The notes under the pieces are model-generated. The model ran no database searches. It was not told where the DNA came from and saw only the letters and a program-made list of their open reading frames with translations. A DNA stretch of 64,000 nt from Erodium maritimum (taxonomy: Eukaryota; Streptophyta; Magnoliopsida; Geraniales; Geraniaceae): NCBI GenBank assembly GCA_963921825.1, contig OY997590.1, positions 46,145,039-46,209,038 on the forward strand, written 5' to 3'. Of this stretch, positions 3,836 through 43,880 are shown piece after piece. Both the position numbers and the translations under genes were made by a program. Positions within the stretch are counted from its first letter, which is position 1; the number at the start of each line of letters is the position of its first letter.

Positions 3836-3985
3836 CCGCACGGTCGTATGTAGCCGTGCGGCACCACAGGTCACTGCCCGTGCGGTTGGAAGATGACATA
3901 CATGGGGCAGTTGACCGCACGGCCGGATGGAGTCGTGCGGCACCACTGGTCACTACATGTGCGGGTGGTTCTACCGCCGTACGAC
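3836..3985. promoter_or_regulatory. Left CCGCACGG motif cluster
   Basis: CCGCACGG or its complement CCGTGCGG occurs at 3836-3843, 3854-3861, 3878-3885 and 3915-3922, with near matches at 3933-3940 and 3973-3985. The cluster lies in a predicted 5'-leader intron of the transposase gene: the donor gtaag starts at 3626 and the acceptor ag is at 4087-4088. The same motif marks every other non-coding gap of this MULE, which suggests protein-binding sites. That role is inferred. Confidence 0.55.
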
Positions 3986-4090
3986 CAATTGAATAATCAA
4001 CATAATTAGTAATATGTCTTTGTGAGGTTGTAATTGTTGTTATTGTTACAAGAATGTGTGAGGTTTGTAATTGTTGTTATTGTTACAGGA

Positions 4091-6541
4091 ATGGGTGGAG
4101 TTGTAATCCGTGTTACGTACGGTGGGGAATATAAGCTAGAGGGTGGTAAGTATAACTTGATATCAACAAACGCGGATCTATGTAATCTTGTTGTTGATGA
4201 TAGTACAACAATGAACACATTGAAGGACCTCCTTTATTCTAGGATCGGGGTGAAGGAAAGTGAGACAGAATTAAAACTTTGTTACATAGCTCGGGGCTTT
4301 GAAGGAGTTATGCCGCCAGAGAATATCATAGAGGATATTAATGTTCAGTGTTTTGTAATGGATAACATAAATATAGAATCCAGGATCGTCTTACGTGTAG
4401 AGCTGATCAAGAAAGATACCATTGGCGCCGAAGCTGAAATGGTGGAAGTTGAAAATGGGGTGCACTGTGATACGGTGGTAGGTGTACCGGAAGCTATTGC
4501 ATTTGAGAATGCTGAACATGAAAATGGTGGGCGTGATAATTTTTTTGACGTTGATATTGTAGTGGTGCGGATATTAATGAAAACCTAGTTATTCGGCGGC
4601 GTCGACGTAGAAAATGTGATTCGGATGCAGAAGCATCATCTCATACGCCACCACCAGTAAGCTTGGATAATATTGAAGAGAACGATCAAATGGTGGAGTA
4701 TGTTTCTGGGAACTAGCAGTTTCCGTTAGATACAGTTGATCCAGAACAAACCACGATCGGATTTAGGGATGAGTCAGATTTAGCAGTTGGTAAAGAGTTT
4801 CGGGACAAGAAAGGAGTGATGATGTATCTGACATAGCTTCAAAATAAGAGGAATTTTTGGATGCGCCGTGGTAGATCAAATAAAGAATTATTCATTGCAA
4901 AATGTCGTAGTGCTAATTGTGGATGGAGAGTGCGTGCAGCAAAAGATCGGGGATCGAATACTTTCTCCATTAAAACCTATGAGTCTTTGCATACTTGTCA
5001 GAACAGTGATCGGAACTCCCAAAAAGGCCATCTGACAACGAAACAAATTGCTTGTAATTTGGCTAAACAATATGCTGGAAGGAAAAAGATTCCCAGAACA
5101 TTGGAAATTCAAGACAGTTTGAAGGGAGACAATTTAGGCTTTTACAAATACTGGAAATGCTGGAAGGCAAGAACACTGGCGATGATTAAACTTGTGGGGG
5201 ATCCTGAATTAATTATGGGTTACTCCCTCTTTATTTGAAACATGTTCGAAAGCAGAATGAAGACGCGGTAACTCATTTGGAGTTGGATGAAGACAATAGA
5301 TTTAAATATGTTTTTGTAGCATATCGGCCATGCATTACTGAATTTAACACTACTTTAAGAAAGGTGCTCGCAGCAGATGGTACATGGTTGAAAACAAAGT
5401 ATAAAGAGGTTATGATAATTGCAACTGGTCAAGATGTTAATCATCACCAATATCCAGTTGCTTGGGTTGTAGTTGACTCGGAGAACAACGATTCATGAAG
5501 ATGGTTCTTCCAGAAGTTGAGGCTGGAGATCCCGGACGAGGAGGACTTGGTTATAATTTCTGATAGAAATAGAAGTATCATCAATGCAGTGTCGGCACTC
5601 TACCCAAATAATAAACATGGACATTGTAGGTGGCATCTGACCCAAAATGTCAGAGATCATCATGGGGGTAAGCCGAAAGACAAATTGTCGAAGTTATTCG
5701 AAAAAGTTTCTGATGCTTACACAATGGAGAGGTTCCTTGCCAAGTACAAAAAGTTGAAAGAAGTGTACCCCAAGGCAGCGCGATATCTGGAGAAAACAAA
5801 CATAGAACGTCCTCAGTGGGAGAGATCTCACTTTGAAGCCGCTCGGTACAATCTCATGACCACGAACGGTGTTGTGTAACAACAATGCAATACTAGAAGA
5901 GAGATAGTGGCCTATTGTAGAGCTGTTAAACGCCATGCAGAAACTGGTTAGTCATTGGTTCATCCTTCGTTTAGATGTGTTGGCCAAAATACCTCCTTCC
6001 CAAGCTCTAACTCCAAAGGTAGAGAGTATCATGTCAAGTAGGAATGATCTAGTGAAGGAGATGCGAATAATACCACTGAACAAACACGACCAATATCGGG
6101 TTAGTTGTGAAGACAATGACGTCTTTGTTGATTTGGGGATGAAGCGGTGTAGTTTTCGGGTGTTTGATCTCGATAGAATTACTTGTGAACATGCCTTAGC
6201 GTGTTGTGACCATGCTGGGGTAGATATATATTTCTTGTGCTCGAAATACTACACGGTAGAAGCATGGGCTCTTGCTTATACTGGAACCGTTTACCTAGTG
6301 TTACGAGAATCAGAGTGGAATATTGATGATGTTTTGCCTGAAGGTCGTATAGAGGTTCTCCCTCCAGATTATGAAATGAGACGCGGTAGACTAACTGAAA
6401 GAAGAATCCATCCCGTCAGTAGGTGAGGTGCCAAGAGCGGCTCAAGCGGCTCCGAAGCGTCCCCGAAAATGTGAAAATTGTTCGACTGTTGGTCACAACA
6501 AACGTACATGCCCTGGGCTTGCTTCTGCATCTACTATGTAA
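4091..6541 (+). pseudogene. MuDR-type MULE transposase (decayed)
   Basis: The product would be the DDE transposase that cuts and inserts the element. The ATG at 4091 follows a splice acceptor at 4088. The N-terminus (MGGVVIRVTYGG..) looks like the PB1-like region of plant MuDR proteins. A MuDR DNA-binding region follows (about 4730-5100, with a C..C..WR pattern). The MULE DDE core spans about 5330-5910: AADGTW..K, then IISDRN, then HCRWH, then RYNLMTTN. A SWIM zinc finger lies near 6140-6260 (CEHALAC) and a C-terminal CX2CX4HX4C knuckle near 6470-6510. Four frameshifts (near 4560-4600, 5235, 5870 and 6420) and four in-frame stops (near 4714, 4834, 5498 and 5919; TAG or TGA) destroy the gene. 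It converges with the small gene at 7163-7384. Confidence 0.85.
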
Positions 6542-7162
6542 GGATTTGTATTTTATTATGCTACTATTTGGTGAGTAAGGATAATATATGTAAGGATATG
6601 TATTTCACTATGCTACCATTTGGTGACTGAGGATGCTATATGTATTTCATTATGCTACTATTTAGGTTTGATGCGAATGTTTGCATTGCAATGTTCTGAT
6701 GTACTGTGTTGAAAGTCACCATTTCCATTTTAGGCTGTAATGCATTTCGTCGTGCGGTCATCATTGGCCACCGTGTGGTTAAATATAGAGCATTACTACT
6801 GCACAAGATCTGGCCGCACGGGTGTCTATAGTGCCATACGGGTGACCCGTGCGGGACTAAACATACCCGTGCGGCATTGGTCTAGGTGAAGGAATGCTTT
6901 CTGGTCACCCGTACGACACTATAAACACCCGTGCGCCAGATGACCGCACATTGTTTATACACTATTGTTCTACCTCAAACATGGCAACATTCAATCAATA
7001 ACCAGCCATGTAAAGATCAGAATAAAACAACTTCAACGTTAAACATGTTCCACGTTAAACACCAACCCTATTTATTACAACAAAGACTCACACGTATTGC
7101 AAAATTAGTGGTCTTTGTCTCCGATACAAAGTCGGGCACGTATTACCTAAACCCTAAACGAA
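6542..7162. promoter_or_regulatory. MULE non-coding gap with CCGCACGG cluster
   Basis: This is the shared 3' side of the transposase gene and the first small gene. Exact motif copies lie at 6814-6821, 6847-6854 and 6867-6874, with variants at 6751-6757, 6908-6914 and 6943-6949. Upstream, a short imperfect repeat (tatgctac[c/t]atttgg) occurs three times between 6558 and 6664. The open frames here lack support. Confidence 0.5.
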
Positions 7163-7384
7163 TTACCAATGCGCTGGACCAAAGTCTTGGTATGTGAATG
7201 ACAGGATGTAGTGTTCAAGATTGTCAAGCTCTTCCACAACTTTGTTGGCTTCTACTTGTCTTCCTCTGACCATTTTGTTGAATCGGCCACCCGGACCTCC
7301 TCCCAAACCTCCTCCCGAAGTTGGATCGCCTTCGGAAGGATCCGTAGGAGAGGTGTCTTGATTTTCTCGAACCTCAACATCATC
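7163..7384 (-). CDS. Short coiled-coil protein of the MULE, copy 1
   Basis: The frame is open for 73 codons from just below an in-frame TGA at 7385-7387 down to the TAA at 7163-7165. It runs from an acidic and Gly-rich part (..DPTSGGGLGGGPGG..) into a charged helix (VEANKVVEELDNLEHYIL) and ends LSFTYQDFGPAHW. The final LSFTYQD plus a C-terminal Trp is shared with the plus-strand ORF at 9660-9933. No ATG opens the whole frame. The first in-frame ATG (7271-7273, minus) would give 36 residues, so the start is lost or lies in an upstream exon. The upstream region (7440-7600) resembles the promoter of the other copy (ccccacattaaatgg). Function is unknown. Confidence 0.55.
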   Translation of the reverse strand, partial: DDVEVRENQDTSPTDPSEGDPTSGGGLGGGPGGRFNKMVRGRQVEANKVVEELDNLEHYILSFTYQDFGPAHW

Positions 7385-7626
7385 TCACCATTGTTTGTGG
7401 TCATTGCTGAATATCTAATTATCTCTTGAATGGATGAAGTGAGTGAAGACTCACACACATTTAAGGCGAGGTGGTTAGTGTTTTCCATTTAATGTGGGGT
7501 AGTTAGTGGGTTCTATTGAATGTGGGGTGGTGGTTAGTGGGTCCCATTTAATGTGGGGTGGTTAGGGTTCAGATTTTATGGTTTATGGGGAATTGAGTGT
7601 AGGGTTAGGGTTCAGTTGTAATATGA

Positions 7627-7634
7627 CCGCACGG
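7627..7634. promoter_or_regulatory. CCGCACGG motif between the divergent small genes
   Basis: An exact CCGCACGG preceded by GA sits just left of the solo LTR at 7649. The gap continues on the other side of that LTR, where another exact copy lies at 9485-9492 and diverged relatives (tggtcgcacgactcgatgtca) at about 9416-9437. The two small genes therefore share one divergent intergenic region that carries this motif. Confidence 0.5.
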
Positions 7635-7648
7635 CTCGATGTCATAGT

Positions 7649-9393
7649 TGTTGGGATCTCGATGTCGTGGAAATGTTAAACACAAGAATTGCAGCGGAAA
7701 ATTAACCACGAATCAATCGAGATGAATCTACCAAATATGAAAAACAAGTCTGAAAATTCAACAAAGGTTTGAGTACATCACCTTTGCTAGTGCCTCATCT
7801 TGCAGCTCGTGTATCTCGCAAACAAACCGTTGAAACTAAAATCCCTTTGGGCATATTGAAGACCCATATGTGGAGAACGTTCACTCCAAAAATAAGCTTC
7901 ATCGGAATTCGGATGAACCTTCGATCGAGCTCTTGAAAGTGACTGGTCGGACAAAACTATGCTGAAAATCAGCACCTTCTACTTGTCCGAAATTGGTTCA
8001 ATAACACCCAACTTTGAATGGCTTGAGCCCCTTGGACGCCTACGTATCCTTAAAGGAATCAAAGCCAACGTAGTTCTTGAGTTTGATGACTCAAGAACAT
8101 GAAAAACCAACCTTGAAGCTTGGAGGGGGTTTGGCCAAGGTAGAGGAAGAAGAAGAAGACTCTCTCTCTAATTCTCTACAGTTTCATGTTGTCTTCTCCA
8201 ACCTCTCTTGCATGCTTAGTTAAGTGGAATCACTTAACTCTCAACTTAAGACAAGTGTCCATGCCAAGATGCTAGGTGGAGCTAATAAACTACCTAGTTT
8301 ATTAGTTTAGTGGCAATTGGGTCCCACCCAATTTTGGTCAACAAGACTAATTGTCATCTAATGACTTAAGTCTTTGTTGGGCCTAGCCTATGTGGGCCGG
8401 ATATGGGCCTCTCCAAGAGAGCCCATGCCGAGCCCAATATGCTAGCCGGTCCACTATGACGATCCCCACCACAATTCCCTCCAACTTAGGTTCGTCATCT
8501 TCTTATCGAGTATCAAACTGTCGGTGTGACCCTTAGGTCTATGCATGTCGGTAAGATTAACGTAAAATCCCATTTTACTTGATCTTACCAAAGTGGCGAC
8601 TGATGAGACTCAGCATTGCCCGACCCTGCATAACGAATCGCGCCCTGTCGATTCTGACCTTTCAGCCGTCCTTGTCATTAGCCCTTTATCACCGATATCC
8701 TGATTGAGATAAGGCATAGAGCCATCATCCTTATTATCCTCAATCCATGTTCCTTGATATGTGAGATGACTGACCTTATGATACCAGTATCATGTGCATG
8801 GCCATGCTTTCCTGTCAGTCACTCTTGATCAAGCGGCCGTGAACCAGATATCTTTGTCATACCGCAGTATGAGGGATAAATCCCTTAGCCGTCTATCATG
8901 TCACTCATGCAGTCATTCCCCAAGCCAATCCTGGCCGTTATGGAAGCCCAGTCACGGTGCAACGTTGGGCTTTCATGTCAAACTTGGTTGTTTACTGCAT
9001 AGCAATCATATAGACTCCTACCTGACAAGCTACGACTTTGAACATGTTCATGACTTAATCTATGGAACATATTCAGGTCGGGTCGTCCAACAGCATGTCC
9101 CACATGATGTTTATGATCAGACTCCGGAACCCTTTCCTATGGCTAATAGAACGTAAGCCATCGAGAGTCATATCTAATACTAGTCGCTTCCAGCGAAGAC
9201 TATTGACTAGGGACTTCATCGAGTGTGATCCATTCTGATCTATGGTTCTATTCGCATGGTGGGCACAGATCGGAAACACACACGACATATTACTCCAACA
9301 CTTAAGTAATATAGAAGCCGCTTTATTTATATTGCCAACGATGATAATTACAATTGGACATTTACGATCGAACTACGGGCACTGATGCTAACA
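7649..9393 (-). mobile_element. Solo LTR, Copia family (diverged subfamily)
   Basis: The 1745-bp element starts tgttggg and ends gctaaca. It is flanked by the 5-bp TSD atagt at 7644-7648 and 9394-9398. Its ends, order of motifs and length match the LTRs of the full-length Copia element at 11882-20341 in the same (minus) orientation, but it has diverged clearly. It interrupts the region between the two divergent small MULE genes. No internal domain remains, so it arose by LTR-LTR recombination. Confidence 0.85.
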
Positions 9394-9630
9394 ATAGTCA
9401 CTGGCTCGATGTCATGGTCGCACGACTCGATGTCATAGCTGCACAATTGATTCAGCTGACCACATGGCAGTCTAAGCAATCTGACCGCACGGACCATTGG
9501 AACTAGATATTGGAAGACCCTTCCGACAAGAAACCTATTAATACCCATTGAACTATAACTCCCCACCCACCACTTACCCCATATTAATGGAACCCACCAC
9601 CCAACTTACATTTATGGAACTCACCATGCC

Positions 9631-9638
9631 TATAAAAC
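9631..9638 (+). promoter_or_regulatory. TATA box of the second small MULE gene
   Basis: A tataaaac box is followed by a CT-rich stretch of cactcttcact repeats, as in many plant core promoters. The start of transcription would be near 9660. The upstream ccccatattaatggaaccca resembles the repeated ccccacattaaatgg blocks upstream of copy 1 on the minus strand. Confidence 0.45.
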
Positions 9639-9659
9639 CCACTCTTCACTCCACTCTTC

Positions 9660-9933
9660 ACTCACCACTACTTTACTCATTACTCACTCTTCACTCTTCA
9701 CTTCATCAACTAGGTCTGCACCTCTTAGGGACATCATTACAACACAGAGTGCTGAACTTGAACACAAGGAGTTATTGGCCGAGCTCCAGAAGATCAAGAT
9801 AAGTCTTCTGATGTTGCAAGGGAAAGAAGATGAACTGATGAAGGAGTTGAAGGAGGCCTTGGAGCAGGTCAAAGGACTTAAAAAATTTGTACTGTCCTTC
9901 ACTTACCAAGATGCGACCACTTCCTGTTGGTAA
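9660..9933 (+). CDS. Short coiled-coil protein of the MULE, copy 2
   Basis: The frame is open from before the TATA box to the TAA at 9931-9933. The strongly coding-like part starts about 9721: SAELEHKELLAELQKIKI.. then a Lys/Glu-rich helix KEDELMKELKEALEQVKGLK, ending FVLSFTYQDATTSCW. The heptad-like leucines suggest a coiled coil, hence an oligomer. The terminal SFTYQD block and final Trp match copy 1 at 7163-7384. The first in-frame ATG after the TATA box is 9811-9813 (40 residues), so the original start may have mutated. It diverges from copy 1. I know no named family for it. Confidence 0.55.
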
Positions 9934-10114
9934 TATGGGTTTGTAATAAGTAGGGTTATAATGTAAATCATGTTTCTCATTGAGCTTGAATCAATTTTTA
10001 ATGTGAATCGTGATATTTGATGGACGTTTAGGGTATGTAACTTCCTTTTAGCCCTCTTTAATTGGAACATAACCTAACCACACCACTCTGTAATAGAACC
10101 GCACGAGTGAAATA

Positions 10115-11802
10115 TGTTAGTCTTAGTGCCCGTAGTTCAATCCTAAATGTCCAAATGTATATATCATCGTTAGCAATAAAGTTAAAGCGGCTTTATATCA
10201 CTTATGTGTTGGAGTAACATATCGATGTGTGTTCTGATCTATGCCCACCATGCGAATAGAACCATAGATCGAGATAGATCACACTCGATGGGTCCCTAGA
10301 CAACAAAGCTTCAGTAAAAGCGACTAGTATGAAAGATGACTCTTTATGGCTTACGTTCTGTTAGTCATTGGAATGGGATTCCGGAGCCTGATCATAGATA
10401 TCATGTGGGACATGATATTGGACGACCCGACATGAATATGTTCCATAGATCAAGCCATGAACATATTCATTGTTGTAGCTTGTCATGTATCCTTAGACCA
10501 AGGAGTCTTTGTGATCGTTATGCAGTAAACAACTGAGTTTGACCTGAGCCTAACGTTGTACGTAACAGGGCTTCCATAACGGCCATGATTGGCTTGGGTA
10601 TGGACTACATGCGTGACACGAAAGACGGCTAAGGGATTTATCCCTCATACTACGGTATGGGAAAGATATCGGTTCTCGGCCGCTTGATCGAGAGTGAATG
10701 AAAGAATAGCATGGCCATGCACATGATACAGGGTATCATATATTTAGTCATATACATATCAAGGAACAATGATTGAAAATAATAAGGATGACGGCTCTAT
10801 GCCTTATCTCAACAAGGATATCGGAGATAAAAGGATAATGACATAGACGATGGAAAGGTTAGAATCGACAGGGTCGTTTCGTTATGTAGTGTCAGGCAAT
10901 ACTAAAGTCTCGTTAGTTGTCACTTATATAGGATCAAGTAAAATGAGATTTTACGTTGACCTATTGACATGCAGAAACCTAAGGGTCACACCAGAGGGTG
11001 AAACTCATTGACACATTTATGGAGAATGGCCTAAAAGGGAGTTGTCTCGGGACATGACCAAAACTGGGTTTTGGGTCATGTGCCCATAAGTGAATAGGAC
11101 ATTACGGATCAAGACAAGGCTTGGAGTCTTGGGATTGATCACGTCAGATAATGTTGGACATTTCTGGAATGGAAGGCTTGGAGGCGATTAGCGCATCACG
11201 AGACCTCGTTGGGAATGGCCACGAGCCATGTTCCAAGAGGCCCATGAGAAGCCCATGCAACCAAGGCCCATGGAACTAATTAATGAAGTCTTGATTAATT
11301 AGTACTAAGTAAGCAAGACAAGGATTATGGTGTTGGTCATTCACCACCTAACCCCATCTTGTCTAGCCATACTTTGTCCTATTTACACCTTACTTGACAC
11401 CATACTTGTCCCGTGCCTTTAGTTGGACAAGTATGGGGTTTGTTATGTTTAAGTCATATTTTTTCAACATAACAAACACAAGACAAGAATAGGAAACACA
11501 ACTTCTCTCCCTCTCTCCCTACAATTTCGGGTTTGGCAAGCTCCCACGTCCATTTTTGTGTTCTTGAGTCCTCAAAGAGAAGAACTACGTGGCTTTGATT
11601 CCCATGTGGATACGTAGGCGTCTTGGAGACTCAACCCAATCATTCGTTACCCGGTGTTCTTGTTTTTGTAAGAAATAGTGCTGAATTTTTCTCTTGTGAA
11701 TCCATTCTTTGTTAGTTGTTTCATGGTTTTAATTGTCTCTTGGTTTTCATTGATTTTCCGCTGCGATATGGTTCATCTCCAACCCTACCTTGAGACCCAA
11801 CA
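10115..11802 (+). mobile_element. Solo LTR, Copia family (plus orientation)
   Basis: The 1688-bp LTR starts tgttagtcttagtgcc and ends gagacccaaca. It has the 5-bp TSD aaata at 10110-10114 and 11803-11807. It is the reverse orientation of the LTRs in the full-length element that begins 79 bp to the right, and appears about 95% alike in the parts I compared. The two adjacent LTRs therefore form a long inverted repeat. The target was the CCGCACG-rich MULE gap (ccgcacgagtgaaata before, tgaccgcacgg after). Confidence 0.9.
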
Positions 11803-11812
11803 AAATATGTGA

Positions 11813-11820
11813 CCGCACGG
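11813..11820. promoter_or_regulatory. CCGCACGG motif between Copia insertions
   Basis: An exact motif copy lies in the 79-bp island of MULE DNA (11803-11881) between the solo LTR and the full-length Copia. Degenerate copies (gacccgtacggg, agtgccgtatg) follow. The island continues after the Copia at 20342, where another exact copy is at 20445-20452. Confidence 0.5.
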
Positions 11821-11881
11821 CTGGTTATTGAATTCGTATGGTTATGGAATAGACCCGTACGGGAGTTTATAGTGCCGTATG

Positions 11882-13568
11882 TGTTGGGTCTCGAGGTAGG
11901 GTTGGAGATGAACCAACTCGCAGCGGAAAATCAATGAAAACCAAGAGACAATTAAAACCATGAAACAACTAACAAAGAATGGATTAACAAGAGAAAAATT
12001 CAGCACTAGTTCTTACCAAAACAAGAACACCGGTTACGAATGATTGGCTTGAGTCTCCAAGACGCCTACGTATCCACATGGGAATCAAAGCCACGTAGTT
12101 CTTCTCTTTGAGGACTCAAGAACACAAACATGGAGGTGGAAACTAGCCAAACCCGAAATGGCCATGGAAGAGGGAGAGAAAATGTGTTTCCTATTCTTGT
12201 CTTGTGTTTGTTATGTTGAAAAAAGATGACTTAAACATAACAAAACCCATACTTGTCCAACTAAAGGCATGGGACAAGTATGGTGTCAAGTAAGGTGTAA
12301 ATAGGACAAAGTATGGCAAGACAAGATTGGGTTAGGTGGTGAATCACCAACACCTTAATCCTTGTCTTGCTTACTTAGTACTAATTAATCAAGACTTGAT
12401 TAATTAGTTCTATGGGCCTTGGTTGCATGGGCCTTTCATGGGCCTCTTGGAACATGGCCCGTGGCCATTTCTAACGAGGTCCCGTGATTCGCTCATCGCC
12501 TCCAAGCCTTCCATACCGGAAATGTCCAACATTATCCGACGCGATCAATCCCAAGACTCCAAGCCTTGTCTCGATCCGTAAAGTCCTATTCACGTACGGG
12601 CACATGACCCAAAACCCAGTTTTGGTCATGTCCCGAGACAACTCCCTTTTGGCCATTCTCCATAAATGTGTCAATGAGTTTCATCCTCCGGTGTGACCCT
12701 TAGGTTTATGCATGTCAATAGATCAACGTAAAATCCCATTTTACTTGATCCTATTTAAGTGGCAACTAACGAGACTTTAGTATTGCCTGACACTACATAA
12801 CGAATCGACCCTGTCGATTCTAACCTTTCCGTCGTCCCTGTCATTATCCTTTTATCTCCGATATCCTGATTGAGATAAGGCATAGAGCCGTCATCCTTAT
12901 TATTCTCAATCACCGTTCCTTGATATGTGAGATGACTGAAGATATGATACCCAGTATCATGTGCATGGCCATGCTATTCTTCCAGTCACTCTCGATCAAG
13001 CGGCCGAGAACCGATATCTTTCCCATACCTTAGTATGAGGGATAAATCCCTTAGCCGTCTTTCGTGTCACTCATGTAGCCCGTCCCCAAGCCAATCCTGG
13101 CCGTTATGGAAGCCCTGTTACGGACAACGTTAGGCTCAGGTCAAACTCAGTTGTTGACTACATAGTGATCACAAAGACTCCTTGGTCTAAGGATACATGA
13201 CAAGCTACAACACTGAATATGTTCATGACTTAATCTATGGCACATATTCAGGGCGGGTCGTCCAATATCATGTCCCACATGATATCTATGATCAGACTCC
13301 GGAATCTCATTCCAATGACTAACAGAACGTAAGCCATAAAGAGCCATCTTTCATACTAGTCGCTTCTAGTGAAGCTTTGTTGACTAGGGACCCATCGAGT
13401 GTGATCTATCTCGATCTATGGTTCTATTCGCATGGTGGGCATAGATCAGAGCACACGTCGATTTATTACTCCAACACATAAGTAATATAAAGCCGCTTTA
13501 ATTTTATTGCTAACGATGATATATACATTTGGACATTTAGGATTGAACTACGGGCACTAAGACTAACA
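11882..13568 (-). repeat. 3' LTR of the Copia element
   Basis: It begins tgttgggtctcgagg and ends gactaaca on the plus strand, and is 1687 bp long. It contains the same short open frames as the other LTR at an exact offset of 6773 bp. Those frames are not supported as genes. Confidence 0.93.
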
Positions 13569-13583
13569 ATCTCCCACTTGCCC
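13569..13583 (-). other. Copia polypurine tract
   Basis: Read on the minus strand, a purine-rich gggcaagtgggagat abuts the start of the 3' LTR. It is the expected primer for plus-strand DNA synthesis. Confidence 0.75.
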
Positions 13584-13719
13584 TAGTTCCAATCTAAACT
13601 CCAATATGTCCCCATCGACTTTACATGTCTAACATGTCCAGGCAGTGACACTGCCTTAGTCAACGGGTTGGCTATGTTATCATCTGTTGCAATATCGGTT
13701 ATCTTCACTTCACCTCAGT

Positions 13720-16700
13720 TCAGTATTTATCTGATGAGGTGGATACGCCGCAGTACATGTTTGGATTTGTTATGCGATCTAGGCTTTTAGCTTGCGCAAT
13801 GGCCCTTGTGTTGTCGCAAAATGGATTCACCGGACTGGATGGGTTTTTAATTACACCCAGCCCTGCCATGAATTTCCAAATCCACATAGCCTCCTTAGCT
13901 GCCTCTGCAGCATCCATGTACTTGGCCTCTGTCGTAGATTCGGCAATGATATCTTGCTTTACGCTTTCCCAGCTAAAGCTCTGCCATTCAGCGTAAACAC
14001 ATATCCTGATTGACTTCTAAAGTCATCTGGATTTGTCTTGGAAAACTAGCGTCTACTCATCCTTCGACGACTAGTTCAGCATCATCTTTCCCCCGGGTTA
14101 GAATGATGTCTACTGGTCCAACATAAGGCCTACGAGACGTCTGGTCTCATACATGTCATGGCATATATGATCGATCCTGCCCCCAGGCGCATAGGATTCT
14201 CATCATCCTTTTCAGCTCATCAGGTGTCTTAGGACACTGAGTCTTGCTGAGATGAATGCCATGACTAGTGGGTAAGAGTCCTTTCTTTGAATCGAGCATT
14301 AAGAACCTACTCAATGCCTTGTTCACATAGGTTCCCTGACTTAAATCCAAGACCCTCTTGGTGCGATCTCTACATATCTTAATCCTTAAGATATGAGAAG
14401 CATCGCCTAAGTCCCTTATTGAAAAACACTTCCTCAACCAAGCTTTAGTCTCGTGCAAGGTTGGGATGTCGTTTTCAATGAGAACCAGAAAGGTAATATT
14501 GCTCCCACTAGCCTTCTTATAAACGCAAGATTCATCCTCGTTCTTGATTAAGCCAAATCCAATTACAGCTTCATCAAAACGAAGGATCCAACTCCGAGAA
14601 GTTCGTTTCAATCCATATATGGATTTCAACAACTTATAAATCTTTCCTTTATTCTTCGGATCGTCAAAACCTTTGGGCCGAGACATACAAATGTACTCAG
14701 TCAAATTTCCATTTAGGAAAGCGGTTTTGACATCCACTTGCCATATCTCGTAATTATGATACGCAGTTATGTCAAGAAGAATTTGGATCGATTTTGACCA
14801 TAGCCACTAAGGAGAAGGTTTCCTCATAGTCAATCCATTGGATCTGCCTATAACCTTTCGCCACCAGTTGAGCTTTGTAGGTCAGAGGGTTGCCGTCCAT
14901 GTCCATCTTCACCTTGAAGATCCATTTGCATCCGATGGTCCTCACACCATTGATGGGATCAACCGGTTCCCAGACTCGGTTGTCCGACATGGATTGCATT
15001 TCCTCCCTCATGGCTCCCAGCCATAACTCGGAGTTGGGCCCATCCACGACTTCCTGAAAGGTGGCTGGATCATCGTGATCCACCATGACTTCATTGTCAC
15101 CTCCGGATACCATATCTTGGAGGTGGAAGATTGATCCTTTCAAATCGCCTTGGACCTTCCAGAATTGTAACAGGAATTGGTTCTTACTCTACGACAATCT
15201 CTGGCTCCTTTCTACTGGGTTGCCAATTGGTTTAGACAGATCTGTACCATCCTGAATTTCTTCGAGATGCACAGTCCTCCCAATGACGTCTTTGGAAACA
15301 AAACTTCTTTTCCATAAAGACCCCACCCCAAGCGACGAACACCATGTTCTCACTGGGATTGTAGAAATAGTATCCCCTTGTTGCTTTGGGATACCACACG
15401 AAGGTGCATACCTCAGATCTTGGTTCGAGCTTAGTCGAAACCAAATGTTTCACATAAGCCTCGCAACCACAAATCTTTAGGAAGGACAAAGCGGGCATCA
15501 TCCCGTACCATTTTTAAAATGGTGTCCCTTCCACACCATTCGTCGAAGCCCGATTCACTATGAATGCGGTCGTCTCTAGAGCAAAACCCCTAAAAGAGAT
15601 GGGAGATCAGTCCAACTAATCATGGAACAGACCATTGTCTAACAATGTCTGATTTCTCCGTTTGGCTACACCTTTCAACTACAGTGACCTAGGAGGAGTC
15701 CATTCCAAAAGGATCCCATTCTCTTTTAGATGATCTAATAACTCTGTGGTCAAGTATTTTCCACCTCGATCCAATCGAAGTGCCTTAATACCTTTGTCGA
15801 GCTGGTTTTCTACTATAGTCTTAAACTCTTTGAATTTATCAAAAGTTTCAGACTTATGTCTCACCGAATAGACATAACCATATTTACTGTAATCATCAGT
15901 AAATGTGATAAAGTAGCTAAAACCCCTCCTGGCAAGTGAACTTATTGGTCTACACACATTCGAGTGTATCAGCCCAAATAATTCACCCGCCCTTTCATCG
16001 CGATCGATAAAGGGCACTTTAGTCATTTTTCCCATCAAACAAACCTTGCACCTATCGATCGAATGGAATTCGAATGAACCTGAAAGCCCGCACTTCTGAA
16101 GTGCTGATAGGCGCTTCTTGTTTATGCGACCCAAATGACAGTACCATAACAGAGTTAGGTTTAAATCGTTGGATTTAGACCTCTTGGTATTAACGGAATA
16201 TATAGAACTTGAGGCATTGTTACCCATATCTAATATGTACAATCCTCCAACCATGTCAGTACTGGTATAAAACATATCATTGCATAGAACATTGAAAACT
16301 CCATTTCCAATATTAACATTATATCCTTCCTTGTCAAACACGGATACAGATATAATATTCCTACTAAAAGTAGGTATGCAATATACATTATACAATACTA
16401 AGACAAGGCCTCTTGGCAAAGCAAGACTCATGGATCCTACAGTAGTTGCCACAACTCTGAGGTCCATTTCGTGCTTTCCAAATCTCTCCTACTTTCAGCC
16501 ACCATATATTAGTGCATGTGTGAGATTCAGTCATGGTATCTAATACCCATGAATCTTTGGAAGTAGAGAGATGTAGCTCTATAGAGTTAATACCGATTGA
16601 AGGCACGGTCCCACCGCCCTTCCTTAGATCATCCAGGTTTCCTGATGAAGGCGCAGTCTTACTGCCCTTCTTCAGATCATCCAGGCTATTTGATGAAGGC

Positions 16701-17096
16701 GTAGTCCCACTGCCCTTCTTCAGATCAGCCGTGAACTTCCTGTAATCCCGGTTCCAATGACCAGGCTGTTGGCAGTAGAAGCAGACATTCTCAGGTGTCT
16801 CATCTTTCCTGCCAAGTGCGCATGGGCCCAGCCCATGCCACTTCCAATTCCCTTGTTGACCATCAGAATATCCTTGGATCCCAGATCCCTGAGATATTCT
16901 TCTCAGCAGTTAATGACACTTCATGTAACTCTGATATGGTCTTAGAGACAGCCTTGTCAAGGACATATTCTTTGCGTTCAGACTTGAGGACTATCCTCAA
17001 AATTCTGTACCAGTCCAAATAGTTTGTCCCATTTAGCTTGACCCTGTCAAGAATGGTTTTTAATGACAAACTATTAATGTTCGCTGAATTTGCCAT
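13720..17096 (-). pseudogene. Copia gag-pol polyprotein (catalytically broken)
   Basis: Domain order on the minus strand is Copia order. Gag N-terminus (17096-16863, with LNGTNYLDWYRILRIVL) is followed by a zinc knuckle (near 16790) in which CX2CX4H is kept but the last Cys is Tyr. Most of gag between them is missing. GAG-pre-integrase (HLGRINKKR, C..C) and the integrase core follow (16467-15679); the first Asp of the usual HTDVCGP-like block is Asn (HSNVCRP). The integrase C-terminal region is 15501-15232. Reverse transcriptase is 15143-14156; the YVDD catalytic block is deleted, so LVL runs straight into ENDIPTLH. RNase H remnants lie at 13917-13720 (EAAKEA..W, CDN, AIAQAK). Frameshifts separate several pieces. 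Confidence 0.88.
16578..16730 (-). repeat. Three 48-bp units in the Copia gag
   Basis: A 16-codon unit reading DDLKKGSxTxPSSxx on the minus strand is repeated about three times between the zinc knuckle and the protease region. The first unit starts ADLKK. The copies keep frame, which suggests tandem expansion while the sequence was still coding. Confidence 0.65.
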
Positions 17097-18640
17097 TTGA
17101 TCTACAACAGATAAAATTCAATCAGTAAACTGAATAAATTTTATGAAGATCAAGCTTAAACACCAACAATCGATTCTAAACCTTTAGAATCTGAAACCAA
17201 GATCCTTGATTCACTCGATTAAGCTGAACTAATGCTCACCACTTAATCGAGCTATGTAGGTAGGACTCCATCCAATCACATCCAATGTGACTCTTGGCTA
17301 GGGTATGCACTTATGTACACGGCTTACCCTATCTGTTACCCTAGCTCAACCTCAGGCTGAGAATCGTAGTCGGGTCCACCAATTTTCAACTATGGCCCGT
17401 CACTATGTAGGTGCTCCGCTAATGCGCACGACACCCACATATGTCGTCCAAACCTACTACCCCGCTTTCCCATGGATGCTCCGCTAATGCGCACGACACC
17501 CATAGGACGGGGAGGTAGTAAGGTGTTGATGATTGGGAGGTATCGGACATGACCCGCTTTTACTTGTCCAGTTGTGTTCAAAACTTTGGCACATCCTAGA
17601 TGCGATGAGCACATCAACTACATTCCAAATGCAATGATGCCTCAAATTACATCCAATGTAATTCTTCCTTTGAACCCGTCAACTACATCCAATGCAATGA
17701 CGGTTCTAAGGGTTCACACACAAGGATTAAAATTCCAATTTTATCTTTGCATGTGAGATGATATGCTCGGTAAATAAAGTTAAGCATGCAATTCTAAAAC
17801 ACATAGAATTAATCATGCATAAACTAAACCAAGCATAAAGCGATAAATATGCACATAATAGCCCCCTAAACTAACTCCCACTAGCTTCTTGAGCTCCATC
17901 GACTCCAAGCCGATGCCAACACCCGAAAAGCCACCAAATGACCTTTTCGCCCTTTCTTCATCTTGAGTAAAATATTACAATTTAATACACGACTCGCAGG
18001 TCGGGAATAAATAAATATTACAAACAAGTGGTTCGACGACCACACCTTGAAAGAATAATTACACGCTAACACTAACGGCTCGCAGGCCGTGAAAAGCGAT
18101 AAATAATTAAATTGAGCTCGGGGCTATTATGTACACCATGCCAACATCACATCACACATCGTGTTATCAAACAAGCATATTATCAAACATCATGTGATTT
18201 TCCGGTTTTAATTAATAGCCAAGTTTCGAAATTTTTTTGATGCTCGGTTTATCGAAACCTTTCAAAAATGAAACTTTTGAACATTTGATCTTCGAGTTCG
18301 TCATGACGGTTCCAAACTCGTCATAACTAACAAAACGGTTTAGCCATGGCATATCAACCATCCAATGGTCATGCTTGGCCTAGCTCCGTCCAACGGAGCC
18401 CCGTTCGGTCCCGGTTTCGGCTCCCCGAGAGTCCCGCTCCCGAGACCCGAAAAATCAAACTTTTTTTCAAAATTTCCAGATTTGAAATAATTTTCAAAAA
18501 TTCATTTTACATGCATTAAATCCATAAACAATAATTTAAAACATGTTATCAAACAATTTAGCAAAACAACATGCCAAAAACGAAACTTTCAAGCAAAACC
18601 GAAACTTTGAACACCGTCTTGTGAATCCCGAAGGTAGCAC
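17097..18640 (-). other. Copia 5' leader, non-coding
   Basis: About 1.5 kb separates the primer-binding site from the gag start. It holds a duplicated block (gctccgctaatgcgcacgacaccca at about 17410-17436 and 17477-17503), repeats of catccaatg.aatg between 17610 and 17700, and no convincing gene. It would contain the packaging signal if the element was moved in trans, which is inference. Confidence 0.55.
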
Positions 18641-18653
18641 GGCTCTGATACCA
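18641..18653 (-). other. Copia primer-binding site
   Basis: Minus-strand tggtatcagagcc lies directly next to the 5' LTR (one base spacer). It matches the common plant Copia PBS complementary to initiator methionine tRNA. Confidence 0.9.
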
Positions 18654-18654
18654 C

Positions 18655-20341
18655 TGTTGGGTCTCGAGGTAGGGTTGGAGATGAACCAACTCGCAGCGGA
18701 AAATCAATGAAAACCAAGAGACAATTAAAACCATGAAACAACTAACAAAGAATGGATTAACAAGAGAAAAATTCAGCACTAGTTCTTACCAAAACAAGAA
18801 CACCGGTTACGAATGATTGGCTTGAGTCTCCAAGACGCCTACGTATCCACATGGGAATCAAAGCCACGTAGTTCTTCTCTTTGAGGACTCAAGAACACAA
18901 ACATGGAGGTGGAAACTAGCCAAACCCGAAATGGCCATGGAAGAGGGAGAGAAAATGTGTTTCCTATTCTTGTCTTGTGTTTGTTATGTTGAAAAAAGAT
19001 GACTTAAACATAACAAAACCCATACTTGTCCAACTAAAGGCATGGGACAAGTATGGTGTCAAGTAAGGTGTAAATAGGACAAAGTATGGCAAGACAAGAT
19101 TGGGTTAGGTGGTGAATCACCAACACCTTAATCCTTGTCTTGCTTACTTAGTACTAATTAATCAAGACTTGATTAATTAGTTCTATGGGCCTTGGTTGCA
19201 TGGGCCTTTCATGGGCCTCTTGGAACATGGCCCGTGGCCATTTCTAACGAGGTCCCGTGATTCGCTCATCGCCTCCAAGCCTTCCATACCGGAAATGTCC
19301 AACATTATCCGACGCGATCAATCCCAAGACTCCAAGCCTTGTCTCGATCCGTAAAGTCCTATTCACGTACGGGCACATGACCCAAAACCCAGTTTTGGTC
19401 ATGTCCCGAGACAACTCCCTTTTGGCCATTCTCCATAAATGTGTCAATGAGTTTCATCCTCCGGTGTGACCCTTAGGTTTATGCATGTCAATAGATCAAC
19501 GTAAAATCCCATTTTACTTGATCCTATTTAAGTGGCAACTAACGAGACTTTAGTATTGCCTGACACTACATAACGAATCGACCCTGTCGATTCTAACCTT
19601 TCCGTCGTCCCTGTCATTATCCTTTTATCTCCGATATCCTGATTGAGATAAGGCATAGAGCCGTCATCCTTATTATTCTCAATCACCGTTCCTTGATATG
19701 TGAGATGACTGAAGATATGATACCCAGTATCATGTGCATGGCCATGCTATTCTTCCAGTCACTCTCGATCAAGCGGCCGAGAACCGATATCTTTCCCATA
19801 CCTTAGTATGAGGGATAAATCCCTTAGCCGTCTTTCGTGTCACTCATGTAGCCCGTCCCCAAGCCAATCCTGGCCGTTATGGAAGCCCTGTTACGGACAA
19901 CGTTAGGCTCAGGTCAAACTCAGTTGTTGACTACATAGTGATCACAAAGACTCCTTGGTCTAAGGATACATGACAAGCTACAACACTGAATATGTTCATG
20001 ACTTAATCTATGGCACATATTCAGGGCGGGTCGTCCAATATCATGTCCCACATGATATCTATGATCAGACTCCGGAATCTCATTCCAATGACTAACAGAA
20101 CGTAAGCCATAAAGAGCCATCTTTCATACTAGTCGCTTCTAGTGAAGCTTTGTTGACTAGGGACCCATCGAGTGTGATCTATCTCGATCTATGGTTCTAT
20201 TCGCATGGTGGGCATAGATCAGAGCACACGTCGATTTATTACTCCAACACATAAGTAATATAAAGCCGCTTTAATTTTATTGCTAACGATGATATATACA
20301 TTTGGACATTTAGGATTGAACTACGGGCACTAAGACTAACA
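18655..20341 (-). repeat. 5' LTR of the Copia element
   Basis: The copy is 1687 bp, with the same ends and sequence as 11882-13568 as far as I compared. On the minus strand it starts tgttagtcttagtgcc. Confidence 0.93.
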
Positions 20342-20516
20342 GTATGAGCTTAATAATAGGGTGTAGGGTGCATATATTCTTATAGCCGCATGAGTGTATT
20401 TAGTCCGCACAAATGATGATATTACCGTACGGGCAGGTTTTTGACCGCACGGTGGACAGAGACAGAATCAAAGTAAATTTTAAAGTTGAAATCCATTATT
20501 ATTGAACAACATTACA
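20342..20516. promoter_or_regulatory. MULE gap with CCGCACGG, 3' of the DUF1985 gene
   Basis: MULE DNA resumes after the Copia. It carries CCGCACGG at 20445-20452 and relatives at 20384-20390, 20404-20409 and 20425-20432. It is the shared 3' region of small gene copy 2 and the DUF1985 gene. Confidence 0.5.
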
Positions 20517-23125
20517 TTAAATGGCAGAGAGTTGGTTAATAATAATCTGTTCCTTGTCTTTCTCCTGAGCCATCCACTCAATCCAACGGTGGAACTAAGC
20601 AGGCTCCTCGACCGAATCAAAGTCATCCCCAATCCCGTATGTCCAACGAGGCCTTTCAAATGGGGGTCCAGGACATGGAACATCTTTTTCGCGCATGAGT
20701 TGCTTAATGTGTCCCAACCACTAATTTGCTTCATCGACTAGTCGGTCGAACTCAACTGAGCACGCTGGTTGATATGGTGGGCCCCTCTGTCGTTCGGGTA
20801 CTCGTACTATGGTTCTGATAGCTTCACGTCGCCTCCATCTATGCTCCAGACGAGGATCATGGTGTGGTTCCATGCTGTCACAAACATATATTATATGCTT
20901 ACACCACTAAAAAAACACAAACATGTATAGTAAACTATAATGCATGAACATAAGTCGAATACCCGAGAAGAAGAAGAGGTTGATATCATGTGGATGGGAC
21001 ACCTCGCGTACTCTCTTCCTCTTTCTAGAACTTGGACCCTCTGTGAACGATGGCACGCGGACCATTATGTGGAGAGGAGAGTTTCCATGAGCTGCGACAG
21101 GCCGAGTAAGAGTTTCTTGCACTTGGACGTTCTCCATCCATGATTCATCTAATTCTTCCCAAACTGGTACATCTGCTGCACGTACAACAGTAGCCACTGA
21201 CCAAGAATCCGGTGTGGTCGTCTCCGGCTCTGCTGCCTCTGCCGACTCTTCCACTATAGGTGGCTGCTGTGGATGATCTTGTACCAAAGCTTGAGGCTGA
21301 GACACTGCCCCTTCTCCCGCTCCTGCCTGCTGTGGCACATCCAGTTGCAGATCCTATAGCACAGACTGTACCACATCATCTTCCGGTACTCGGGCAAGGG
21401 CAACCTCACCTACTCCTCTAGATGCGGCAGCACGCTCAGCGGGGATAATAGCAGCAGCAAATTCCACTACCACTACTTCTCTTGAACCGCCAACATCTGG
21501 AACATGAGGCCTTGACTGTGCACCAACATCTGCTTTTCGGTCGAGGCGTGGTGACTATCGAGATCTGGCACCTGATGGTTCGGCACGGTCACGGGCAGCG
21601 AATTTGGTACGAAGTACCCTAAGGACCTCAGCAATTTGAGTCCCTAACTCTGTAAATTGTCCCTCAGCCCATGTCCGTAACTCTCCGATTTCCTCTCTAA
21701 CAGATCAGATTTCTTCCATGACAACCGACTGAGCCACCGGTGCGGGCTCTCTGACATCGTCCCGTACAGGCTCTACATGAACTTCTTCTCCTTCGGATGT
21801 CTCCACAACCAGCGGACGAGATCTCTCACCCAATTCTTCTCCTGTTGTTGGCTCTTCAGCCATCCCCGCCTGCATAACCTTAGGGACCGGATGAGCTGCA
21901 GGTACCGGCAGCACTTCCTCGTCATCCCAATGAATAGATCCTCCACTCTCCAAAAATTCCGCCATACGATCAATATCGGAATTATGATGTTCTTCTGGTA
22001 TGACTCTGATATTCTGGATCCACGGGAGCTCCATCTCATCTACCGTCGGGATGAGGACACTTTCAGTCACACGCACCTGCATGGACATAACTATTACAAT
22101 ACATTACTGTGGCCGAGCAAATTCAAACTTAACTAAATAAGACTACCAAAATTTCAATTTATTACCTCAACTTTTGCAAGTGCTTTGGTGACATCATCTG
22201 GAGGCGGCGCCTTGGACCACTTCGTGCACCATTTGAAGAATCGTGGCCGGTCCGCCGTGTACTCTTCATCCAAGTATCCCCAAATTTTTGAGACTTCAGC
22301 CATACACTCGAACGCCAATATTTGTGTAACATATACGGATAATAATATTATCATTACTATTGTACGTACCGTTAATACGGGGAGAAAACCGCAAATGGTC
22401 CAAGTTTCCCCCTTTTTGATGTGGCTAACGAATCATACTTGGCCTTCAAGTCTCGCATGCAATCCTTCCTTAGTCATTCGAAGGCGACATACCCACATGG
22501 GTAGTTGTTGAACATCTCAAGGTCATCCGCTAACCCCATCCAATTATCCCTGACCTGCTTATATCTTTTTGCACTCGGTAGCAATGCATCTATGACGAAC
22601 AGAAGCTGAGCAAGTATGCATATGTCTTGATCTGGGGCTGACTTATTTCGTCGTCACTCCACGATTGACCTCTTTAAAACATTTGTCCTTTAACACTGTA
22701 GACTTGAATTGTGTTTGGAGCGCTTCATCTGCATGGTTCGGTTGTCTGCAGTTCAACCCAGTGATGAGTGCAAATTCCTTAAGTGACAACCTGAACGGTC
22801 TCCCTTTGAACACAAACCACATCTCCGATGATCTTGCAATCTTCGTTTTCCTAAGGATGAGGGACCACGCAAGGTTGTTGGTCTGCATAAACTTTTTCTG
22901 GAACTTAGTGAACATCCCGAATGGACCATCTTTCAGCAGTTGAATTGTGGAATTGTCACCATTCAAGGATTTCACTATTGTTTCCAGCAATCTGTATTTG
23001 CACCTCTGACTGATCCGACAGTCGAAGAACTGAGCTTCTTTTATTTTGGTTTCCAATCGTGGAAAAACCTGAGGTGGTTTCGAGGGAGTTGCACTTGGAA
23101 CCGTACGAGAATTGCTAGCTGCCAT
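20517..23125 (-). pseudogene. DUF1985 protein gene of the MULE
   Basis: Exon 1 (ATG at 23123-23125) encodes a DUF1985 domain: WFVFKGRPFRLSLKEFALITGLNC, then after a gap at about 22640 ..DDLEMFNNYPCGYVAFE. Plant DUF1985 genes are typically carried by MULEs, often joined to a Ulp1-like protease, but I see no protease motif here. A second exon-like block (..AEVSKIWGYLDEEY.., to about 22165) and a long third block (about 22079-20985) follow. The third block has a helix (REEIGELRTWAEGQFTELG), a Pro/Glu-rich part and a nuclear-localisation-like RKRKRVR. The last exon ends at the TAA at 20517 after EWMAQEKDKEQIIINQL. Six premature stops, all TAG or TGA, inactivate it. It converges with small gene copy 2. 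Confidence 0.75.
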
Positions 23126-24243
23126 TGTTTGTACAAGTAATACTACAATAAATTATTAAATGCAAATTACATAACAGAAATGCAAATCTCAACTTAAAGA
23201 AACAATGTTACTCGTCGTGCGGAAAAGATACCTAGCCGCACGGGTGAACAGAGGAGCCCTACTTCGACAATAAGGCCCCGTACGGCTATTACACCTCGCC
23301 GCGCGGGCTTTCATGCCGCGCGAGTGACCCCGCGCAAGTAGCCTACGTGTTCTCTAAGGCACAAAACGTCGTCGTTTCTTAGGCCCCGTGGGGGGGTTAA
23401 ACCTCACCGCGCGGGAGACACAACTTGCACACCATGCGATTGAGCCGCGTGTTCTCTTACACCAAAAACGCCGTCGTTTTTTGAGTACCCGTACAGGGGT
23501 TAAACCTCGTCGTGCGAGTCACACAGCTTACACCCCGCGTGAGTGAGCCGCGTGTTCTTGAAAGCCCAAAACGCCGTCGTTTCTGAGGCCCCGTGCGGGA
23601 GGTAAACCTCACCGCGCGGCCACCAAATCTCGCCCCCCGCGCAGGTTCGACATGGACGAAAAATGTCGTCATTTCCACCTCGCCGCGCGGGCTTCTGGTC
23701 CACACCGAAACCCTTACCTTTTCCTTCAAGGGTCAACACGCAGTCGTCCAGGCCTATTTCTACTCCGTGCGGGGGACTATGATCCTTCCCCGGCAAAGGC
23801 CCCAAAACCACGGCGTTTGCCTCACCAAACGCTATCGATTAGGCAACCCAACACTGGAGATTTCTACTCTCCTAGGATTTACATTTACTAAATATAACCT
23901 TCAAAATCTTACAGTTCTATTAAATCGTACCTGGTTGGAAGTCGTTTCCGTGGAACCTAATCGCAATGGAGAAAGAGTCGGCGCCGTTGACGGTTGCTCG
24001 GATTTACAGAGAGAGAGAGATAGCGCGAGGGAGGAGAGCAGTTTGATTGTGTTTGGTTTGAATGAAGTGAGCGAGAGGGGGAGGAGTGGAGGGAATTGAA
24101 GAGTCAGACCCGAGGGGTATTGTAGTACTTTCAGCGTTTTTTTAGGTCAAACGAGGTCAAACGAAGGGAAAGTCAGAAATGGAAAAAGATGGATGCTACC
24201 CTTCAAAATACATATTGGTAGAAGTTCTTTCCAATAATTCCTC
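23126..24243. promoter_or_regulatory. Right MULE end: CG-rich promoter repeats of the DUF1985 gene
   Basis: This region upstream of the DUF1985 gene is CG-rich and holds CCGCACGG at 23236-23243 plus many ccgcgcgg and ccgtgcgg relatives up to 23660. About three tandem units with a period near 103 bp are marked by aaaacg[c/t]cgtcgtt at 23363, 23465 and 23568. A gagagagaga run lies at about 24008-24019. The right inverted terminus is 24202-24243. No gene is supported on either strand. Confidence 0.55.
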
Positions 24244-24953
24244 CATAAGTGTTGCGTTGGAATATTTAGACTTATTCCTATTTGAAATCTGCGATGAAAG
24301 GCAGGGGAAAGAGAGCTGGCAGGGGTGATTGAGTGCGGGCAGAAATAATTTTGAACGGTGCAACCGACCTGATATACGTCCAGGATTGAGTCAACACGCC
24401 CAGTCAAGGATCGAAGGGCAGAGATGCGCGAGCTCACTGAAATGGTGTGCGCAACGCAGCACTAGAATGGATCTGTTGCAGCCTTTTCACCTTTTAATTT
24501 TATCGATTCAAATGCTCTTTCCCGCTTCGTCGTTGCTCCGATCGACCTCGTTCTTGTGCCAATAAATCTTTTTTTTGCGTCCTATAAAACAAGACCAAAC
24601 ATGAATATATTTGGAAGAAAATAAAAATATCGACTAAGAACGAAGTTTTGCGCAATTAATACTAAAACGCTAAAAATATAAAAACGAGTACAAATAAGGT
24701 AAAAACATAGAGAAAAACGGTCAAGTTAGATAAGACACATTTCGCTCATCAAGGCCCTAACAATGCCATTCTCTTCAATTGGGCTTGATCTTAAGCCCAG
24801 TATTAGAAAATCTACTAATTTCTTCCTCAATGCTCATGCCTCTTCCCATTGGACCAAATACTCCACTACTATTTTCCTATTTTTCTGAACGAGCCTGAGT
24901 TTGAGTACCTTGAGTGGCTCCACTCGAATATGTCCGCCTTCCCCAACTTCTAA

Positions 24954-43500: not shown

Positions 43501-43561
43501 ACTGGTTGTTGAACTTGCTTGTGATTGTGATTGTGATTGTGATTGCGGATCCCGGTAGGTT

Positions 43562-43880
43562 GCAAGCATTCGTTGGCTGGCCTGACCAAGTTTGAGTATC
43601 AACAGGTTGCAAGCATTCTTTGGCTGGCCTGACACAGTTTGAGTATCAACAGGTTGCAAGCATTCTTTGGCTGGCCTGACATAGTTTGAGTATCAACAGG
43701 TTGCAAGCATTCTTTGGCTGGCCTGACACAGTTTGAATATCAACAGGTTGTAAGCATTCTTGGGCTAGCCTGATCCGATTTTGAGTATCAACAGGTTGCA
43801 AGCATTCTTTGGCTGGCCTGGTCCGAGTTTGAGTATCACAGGTTGTAAGCATTCTTTGGCTAGCCTGATCCGTGTTCATG
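43562..43880. repeat. 47-bp minisatellite, gcaagcattctttggctggcc
   Basis: Units start at 43562, 43609, 43656, 43703, 43750, 43798 and 43845, seven copies with a 47-48 bp period. This array is absent or reduced in the other LTR copies in the window. Confidence 0.9.

Follow-up and report, generated by a model that had tools for sequence, protein, structure and literature searches.

A CpG-rich word in the non-coding DNA of an Erodium maritimum MULE and its probable link to a VANC-like DUF1985 protein

Background

The 64,000-nt stretch of the Erodium maritimum genome analysed here (contig OY997590.1, 46,145,039 to 46,209,038; hereafter the window) carries a broken Mutator-like element (MULE) whose non-coding DNA is strewn with a short word, CCGCACGG or CCGTGCGG in its exact form and CCGYRCGG in a wider form. 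The question raised by this locus is whether the element belongs to a family that encodes a protein reading this word and relieving its silencing, and how such a pair would relate to the VANC systems of Arabidopsis. According to the excerpts of Hosaka et al. 2017 (PMC5735166) used here, VANC proteins, marked there as containing DUF1985, bind short motifs in the non-coding and often tandem-repeated parts of their own VANDAL family, with loss of methylation as the outcome. An earlier note on the window had proposed an independent pair of motif and factor, with the DUF1985 protein or a small coiled-coil protein of the element as the candidate factor. On the evidence presented below a motif-plus-factor reading is likely, the candidate factor being the DUF1985 protein, a homologue of VANC, and the system looks like a further case of the known VANC-type anti-silencing with a different word, not an independent invention.

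The word is concentrated in the non-coding DNA of the MULE

The 64 kb window holds 14 exact copies of the motif, where 100 dinucleotide shuffles gave 0.37 on average and 3 at most; matches with at most one mismatch number 63 against 14.4 in shuffles. Twelve of the latter are CCCCACGG, lying at 43.0-51.3 kb mostly in steps of 57-59 bp, and look like a different tandem repeat from the MULE motif. This recurrence is seen at window 43018-44697 and 51121-51305, and the repeat is possibly akin to an array with a period of about 57 bp in a related element, E2 (6339-7478, in L082).

To place the sites, the element, taken as 3301-24200 minus nested repeats, was split by hand into coding and non-coding DNA before its exact ends were known; the coding share is accordingly approximate, with introns still included. 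All 14 exact sites fall in the 3,417 nt of MULE non-coding DNA; neither the approximate coding share (5,572 nt) nor the 55,011 nt outside the element contains any. Over the same three compartments CCGYRCGG counts 21, 0 and 0, the looser CCGNNCGG 21, 1 and 7, and CGYRCG 31, 2 and 11. Sites are found at both ends of the element, after the transposase gene, on both flanks of the small gene at 7166-7404, next to that at 20520-20903 and in a sliver of the MULE at 11803-11881 (Table 1). The claim of the earlier note that the motif sits in each non-coding gap and seems missing from the coding parts is borne out by the hand split; the 12 exact positions given there are all correct, with 23591 and 23765 overlooked, and its count of four genes roughly agrees with a transposase gene, a DUF1985 gene and two or three small ones.

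Across the 763 Mb genome the exact word occurs 5,187 + 5,191 times (10,378, or some 14 per Mb, compared with a density of about 4 per kb for MULE non-coding DNA); the reversed control word occurs 4,057 + 3,993 times (8,050), and the single word is thus only mildly enriched. Pairs of words with 11-41 nt between them number 522 + 553 against 133 + 144 for the control. Inspection covered 100 listed pairs, all on C1, of which 44 are minisatellite, mostly with a 34-bp period as judged by eye, and none of these lies within 15 kb of a close DUF1985 match. Among the 56 non-minisatellite pairs, 47 are at most 15 kb from such a match, and all five close DUF1985 matches in the covered C1 stretch have motif pairs. 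Five of the other nine pairs (in three places) align to the window MULE or to its sibling E1, and one place (L088) is an element of a sister subfamily. The minisatellite carrying the same 8-mer (for example C1 9904990-9905065 and 12462895-12463038) lies apart from the MULE matches and inflates the genome-wide counts of the word. The motif is therefore not as common in unrelated DNA of this genome as in the MULE, and relatives with open DUF1985 frames carry it, two points on which the earlier note had let its proposal depend.

The word marks one subfamily of DUF1985 genes

A search of the genome with the DUF1985 fragment of the window, from which 150 of 757 first-look candidates were scored, and a PF09331 search, from which 150 of 841 first-look DUF1985 candidates were scored, supplied the relatives for comparison. 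The 30 best protein matches (group A, L031-L060, window copy included) are 68-100% identical, and were set against 20 loci chosen from the 48-60% band (L061-L080) and the 30 best Pfam matches, with about 30% identity (L001-L030). All 30 group A loci have 6-16 copies of CCGYRCGG in the 1.5 kb that precedes the DUF1985 start, against 0-2 per locus in L061-L080 and none in L001-L030, and a phylogenetic tree unites 26 of the 30 close relatives in one clade with a support of 0.99. Many of the L001-L030 loci have open frames of 300-333 aa; all 30 lack CCGYRCGG upstream, and a simple k-mer look at them brought up no target word of their own.

Several neighbouring subfamilies show other words in the same upstream position: GTATGAG has seven copies in L061, CAGCTCC has 4-9 copies in L064-L066 and L068-L070, and CCAAACG has seven in L062 and three in L067. 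Group A has 2-10 copies of the word AACGACG, and L062 and L064 to L080 have 3-8. CAGCTCCGTCTGG, the word of L064-L066 and L068-L070, has 15 + 15 sites in the genome against 3 + 0 for its control. Of these 30 sites 17 have a listed DUF1985 match from outside group A at a distance of at most 3 kb and none is near a group A match; 13 are without a listed DUF1985 neighbour, the listing comprising 150 of 757-841 candidates per search. Pairs of GTATGAG show a weak excess genome-wide (9 + 14 against 7 + 2 for the control), and one locus on C7 (L091) has eight GTATGAG words with no DUF1985 match in its 2.8 kb. The word CCGTATGAG may be a drifted form of CCGTRCGGG, since the two differ by two transitions.

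Spacing of the word in a sibling element

The sibling E1 (C2:12354951-12364400, 9.45 kb) carries 34 exact and 41 CCGYRCGG sites at its 5' end and in its internal gaps, the exact sites lying in both orientations and in 34 different 48-mers (flank information at most 0.53 bit). Ten of its spacings measure 19-22 bp (P 0.0006), the minimum of 19 bp was equalled in none of 5,000 random placements, and in the 30 group A sequences no pair of sites is closer than 19 bp. Outside the array, the E1 sites are in phase at 20.4-21.4 bp, with p 0.0024 for 22 spacings and 0.0005 when seven spacings of the window are added. This points to a spacing unit of about two helical turns more than to a plain one-turn rule. 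A period scan on all adjacent spacings had peaked near 19 bp, but as it mixes arrays it was replaced by the spacings outside the array. Motif sequence, density and helical periodicity were reportedly named as determinants by Sasaki et al. in 2022. In another element, E4 (L084), AAAATCAG/AAACTGAT form an array, with some spacings of about 20 bp, that lies downstream of other open reading frames (ORFs), roughly 6417-8036 past the DUF1985 start, and is possibly another phased motif set.

The DUF1985 protein is related to VANC21

The DUF1985 fragment of the window matches VANC21 (PDB 9lnj/9lnk) with E = 4.3e-7 over 86-135, the alignment of the sibling protein (L059) to the solved VANC21 chain 9lnj covers residues 36-265 with E = 2e-12, and a DUF1985 protein of another subfamily (L083) matches 9lnj with E = 4.1e-10. 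Judged by these alignments the broken DUF1985 gene of the window is a VANC21 homologue. It is because of this detectable homology that the pair of motif and factor should not be called independent of VANC: what stands of the earlier proposal is, at the level of sequence, a dense non-coding motif typical of one DUF1985 subfamily, and what falls is the supposed independence. A structure prediction of the window protein alone gave a mean predicted local distance difference test score of 37.1 and was not used.

In the sibling a Peptidase_C48 (Ulp1) frame lies downstream of the DUF1985 frame (L081:490-1029; E = 3.8e-4), with 20.8 bits barely over the cut-off of 20.7; the match in L082 is below the cut-off, and a homologous frame is present in L090. 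In the sections of a 2026 review (PMC13317346) drawn on here, the Kaonashi, Ulp1-carrying (KIU) VANC genes are said to recognise their own motifs, as is proposed for the window family, and the capture of Ulp1 is placed at the separation of monocots and eudicots. The likeness to KIU lies in the succession of a DUF1985 frame and a Peptidase_C48 frame, which may be spliced into one protein; the differences are the other plant and a window copy devoid of an Ulp1 match. DUF287 is marked next to DUF1985 in the legend of Fig. 5 of Hosaka et al. (PMC5735166). It had no match in the scanned frames of the window, L059, L081, L082 and L083, and is not taken as a defining feature of VANC systems.

As far as described in the portions of PMC5735166 and PMC10398659 used here, VANC21/VANDAL21 and VANC6/VANDAL6 of Arabidopsis resemble the window element in being MULEs with extra genes and a DUF1985 protein, with a short motif in non-coding DNA and tandem arrays, and with motifs that differ among related families. 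Their words, YAGTATTAY and AGTTGTCC/AC, contrast with the CpG-rich CCGYRCGG, and the window MULE further differs in its several small genes and in the missing DUF287 match in the frames scanned.

Proposed mechanism and its alternatives

Taken together these observations make it probable that the MULE is a VANDAL-like element, that its VANC system is probably of the Ulp1-carrying (KIU) type, and that a DUF1985 protein of its family reads CCGYRCGG and lifts silencing. The DUF1985 protein of an intact sibling would bind CCGYRCGG, best as CCGCACGG, in the gaps that separate and flank the element genes, and the spacing of about two helical turns would line up several protein molecules along one face of the DNA. 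Once bound, they would strip silencing marks from every motif-bearing copy, so that transposase could be made; broken copies such as the window MULE would be acted on in trans, and the specificity for the word would spare the remaining genome. Binding, the identity of the binder and the loss of methylation are what we infer from the sequences.

Of the other explanations that may be entertained, we hold it improbable that the MULE transposase, or a TnpA-like helper, binds the motif and that the repetition of the site serves transposition. Spm/En of the CACTA superfamily offers a parallel, with repeated short sites and a reader encoded by the transposable element that is tied to demethylation, and it is like the window MULE in combining repeated short sites with such a reader, here a proposed one; its TnpA sites are subterminal only, whereas the words of the MULE are also internal. 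The motif does cluster close to both termini, and as long inverted repeats are lacking the transposase sites may be elsewhere, but clusters are also found in internal gaps between genes, kilobases from the ends, and the element encodes a homologue of a known motif reader. A small element protein, and not the DUF1985 protein, could instead read the motif, which we consider a little less likely still, the data leaving the small proteins neither excluded nor favoured. Small genes do lie among the motif clusters, with related ones in E1, E2, L090 and L088, and a small protein of L082 has a weak basic helix-loop-helix resemblance that is below the cut-off (E 0.024); on the other hand, the three small proteins of L081 have no Pfam match up to E 0.1, and the VANC precedent, as given in the cited part of PMC5735166, favours DUF1985 proteins.

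Almost the same low probability, set a shade lower, attaches to the view that no reader exists and that the words arose passively through local tandem duplication and gene conversion. The right-end (5' terminal) array overlaps a 103-bp tandem repeat (2.9 copies, 23327-23618), and the 175 exact sites of the 30 sequences fall in 167 different 48-mers (flank information at most 0.77 bit), which indicates some shared context. Such duplication fits poorly with the exact sites of E1, with their distinct 48-mers and both orientations, which are spaced apart and recur in separate gaps, and with the lack of any window site in coding DNA. Finally, the clusters beside genes might suggest that a host transcription factor binds the motif, which would then act as the promoter of each element gene; this we regard as very improbable, given that the listed non-minisatellite pairs on C1 are mostly in this MULE family, which would be odd for a host site.

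Several observations weigh against the proposed reading by the DUF1985 protein or restrict it. The supported clade unites 26 of the 30 close relatives. CCAAACG, the word of L062, is also present 4-5 times in L069, L070 and L078, L071-L080 showed no strong word of their own, and AACGACG, with no copy in L061 and one in L063, is therefore only a partly shared backbone word. The replacement words are mostly in the 5' 1.5 kb (7/9 in E2, 3/5 in E3, 5/6 in E4 and 7/8 in E5), the rest of these elements being 6.5-8.1 kb with nested insertions, which blurs a whole-element test of the word change. In a sister element (C1:90894700-90900000) the first 4.1 kb (L090) has ten GTATGAG in the array and no CCGYRCGG, and the following internal gap of 1.2 kb (L088) has four CCGYRCGG; either this element is a mosaic, or the 5' array changes first and a word change is under way. 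Co-variation of the motif with the DUF1985 subfamily, as suggested earlier for testing, is accordingly seen mainly in the 5' terminal array, the L090/L088 element carrying both words. Since the motif and the DUF1985 gene travel in one element, common ancestry by itself would couple them and accounts for part of their association; the transposase and the small proteins would co-vary too. Two of the 41 E1 sites lie in open frames (2929 in L059:2703-3449 and 3726 in L081:226-474), and in 12 of 29 relatives a single CCGTACGG lies beyond the start codon. An 18-bp spacing at window 3836/3854 and another in L087 mean that 19 bp is not a strict minimum, phase at 10.2-10.7 bp is not significant (p 0.10, or 0.08 with the window spacings), and the period window was picked after the spacings had been seen. 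Lastly, Pfam and homology scans of the broken window copy gave no Ulp1 (Peptidase_C48) match.

CpG content of the word

CCGYRCGG has two outer CpGs, and its variable centre takes only CpG and its decay products. In group A, represented by 30 sequences (E1 and 29 upstream flanks, 52,950 nt), the one-mismatch variants of CCGCACGG comprise, by our own sum, 126 with A>G in the centre, 116 other transitions and 29 transversions. The centre of CCGYRCGG reads CG in 126 sites, CA in 135, TG in 40 and TA in 8, and 80 sites have one outer CpG transition; these copies share ancestry and were selected by pattern. The counts fit a centre that is tolerant at its CpG, with the outer CpGs retained. Binding to CCGYRCGG may depend on the methylation of the site, unlike that to the CpG-free word of VANC21. 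It is conceivable, albeit doubtful, that the word acts as a methylation fuse, whereby silent copies would lose outer CpGs by deamination and leave the reach of the reader, and copies opened by the reader would keep their sites.

Structure of the element

The assignment to the MULE class rests on Pfam matches to DBD_Tnp_Mut and MULE and on a perfect 9-bp target-site duplication (Table 1). Plant_all_beta, DBD_Tnp_Mut and MULE are above their cut-offs in the transposase frames, and SWIM is under its cut-off. As to the boundaries, right-end flank alignments of relatives most often start at L031 position 382, equivalent to window 24244, and on the left the relative L087 aligns down to window 3328. 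The MULE has no long terminal inverted repeat (no terminal pair of at least 30 nt), and its ends share about 20 nt of degenerate similarity. In VANDAL-type MULEs terminal inverted repeats are absent or short and degenerate; according to PMC6446971 they are present in some Brassicaceae relatives. At L087 (C1:77097000-77098400) the left end of one MULE copy adjoins the right end of another, with the alignments stopping at window 3328 and 24244 and 184 bp in between.

Table 1. Coordinates of the MULE, its genes, motif sites and nested insertions in the window (LTR, long terminal repeat)
Feature	Position	Strand	Details
Whole MULE with nested insertions	3323-24244		ends GGGTGAATTTTTAAAAAGG (left) and GGAGGAATTATTGGAAAGA (right, reverse complement)
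Target-site duplication, left copy, 9 bp	3314-3322		ATAAGTGTT; identical to 24245-24253
Target-site duplication, right copy, 9 bp	24245-24253		ATAAGTGTT; perfect match to left copy
Left-end motif cluster	3836-3940		exact at 3836, 3854, 3878, 3915; near copy 3933
Transposase gene, broken	4034-6540	+	ORFs 4034-4588, 4861-5238, 5517-5879, 5935-6426
Motif cluster 3' of transposase	6750-6936		exact at 6814, 6847, 6867; near copies 6750, 6771, 6929
Small gene 3 homologue	7166-7404	-	72 and 79% to L081:5074-5316, two pieces
Exact motif	7627-7634	+	
Nested LTR-like repeat	8015-9402		related to repeat at 10115-11802; "LTR" is our reading; outer ends approximate
Exact motif	9485-9492	+	
Possible second small gene	9700-9932	+	ending FVLSFTYQD...; read by eye; no tblastn match at 1e-4
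Nested LTR-like repeat, single	10115-11802		opposite orientation to next nested element
MULE sliver, 79 bp, between two nested repeats	11803-11881		CCGCACGG at 11813, CCGTACGG at 11855
Nested element, two LTR-like ends	11882-20341		ends 11882-13568 and 18655-20341
Motif pair	20425-20452		CCGTACGG at 20425, CCGCACGG at 20445
Small gene 1/2 homologue	20520-20903	-	42 and 59% to two small proteins of L081
DUF1985 gene, second coding part	21261-22019	-	59% to L059:2703-3446
DUF1985 (VANC-like) gene, broken	22352-23125	-	first 160 aa open (22643-23125); PF09331 E = 2.1e-12
5' terminal motif array	23215-23772		exact at 23236, 23591, 23765; CCGTACGG/CCGCGCGG at 23278, 23299, 23407, 23612, 23683

Implications

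What is probably new in this family is the CpG-rich word together with its partial change in neighbouring subfamilies, our literature search not having been aimed at the word itself. With a candidate word and its candidate reader, and with related copies by the dozen in a large plant genome, the VANC-like reading and the turnover of motifs become testable outside Arabidopsis. The neighbouring subfamilies would provide natural steps in the change of a word, and one element has two words. As the word bears CpG, it also lets one ask if a VANC reads methylated DNA.

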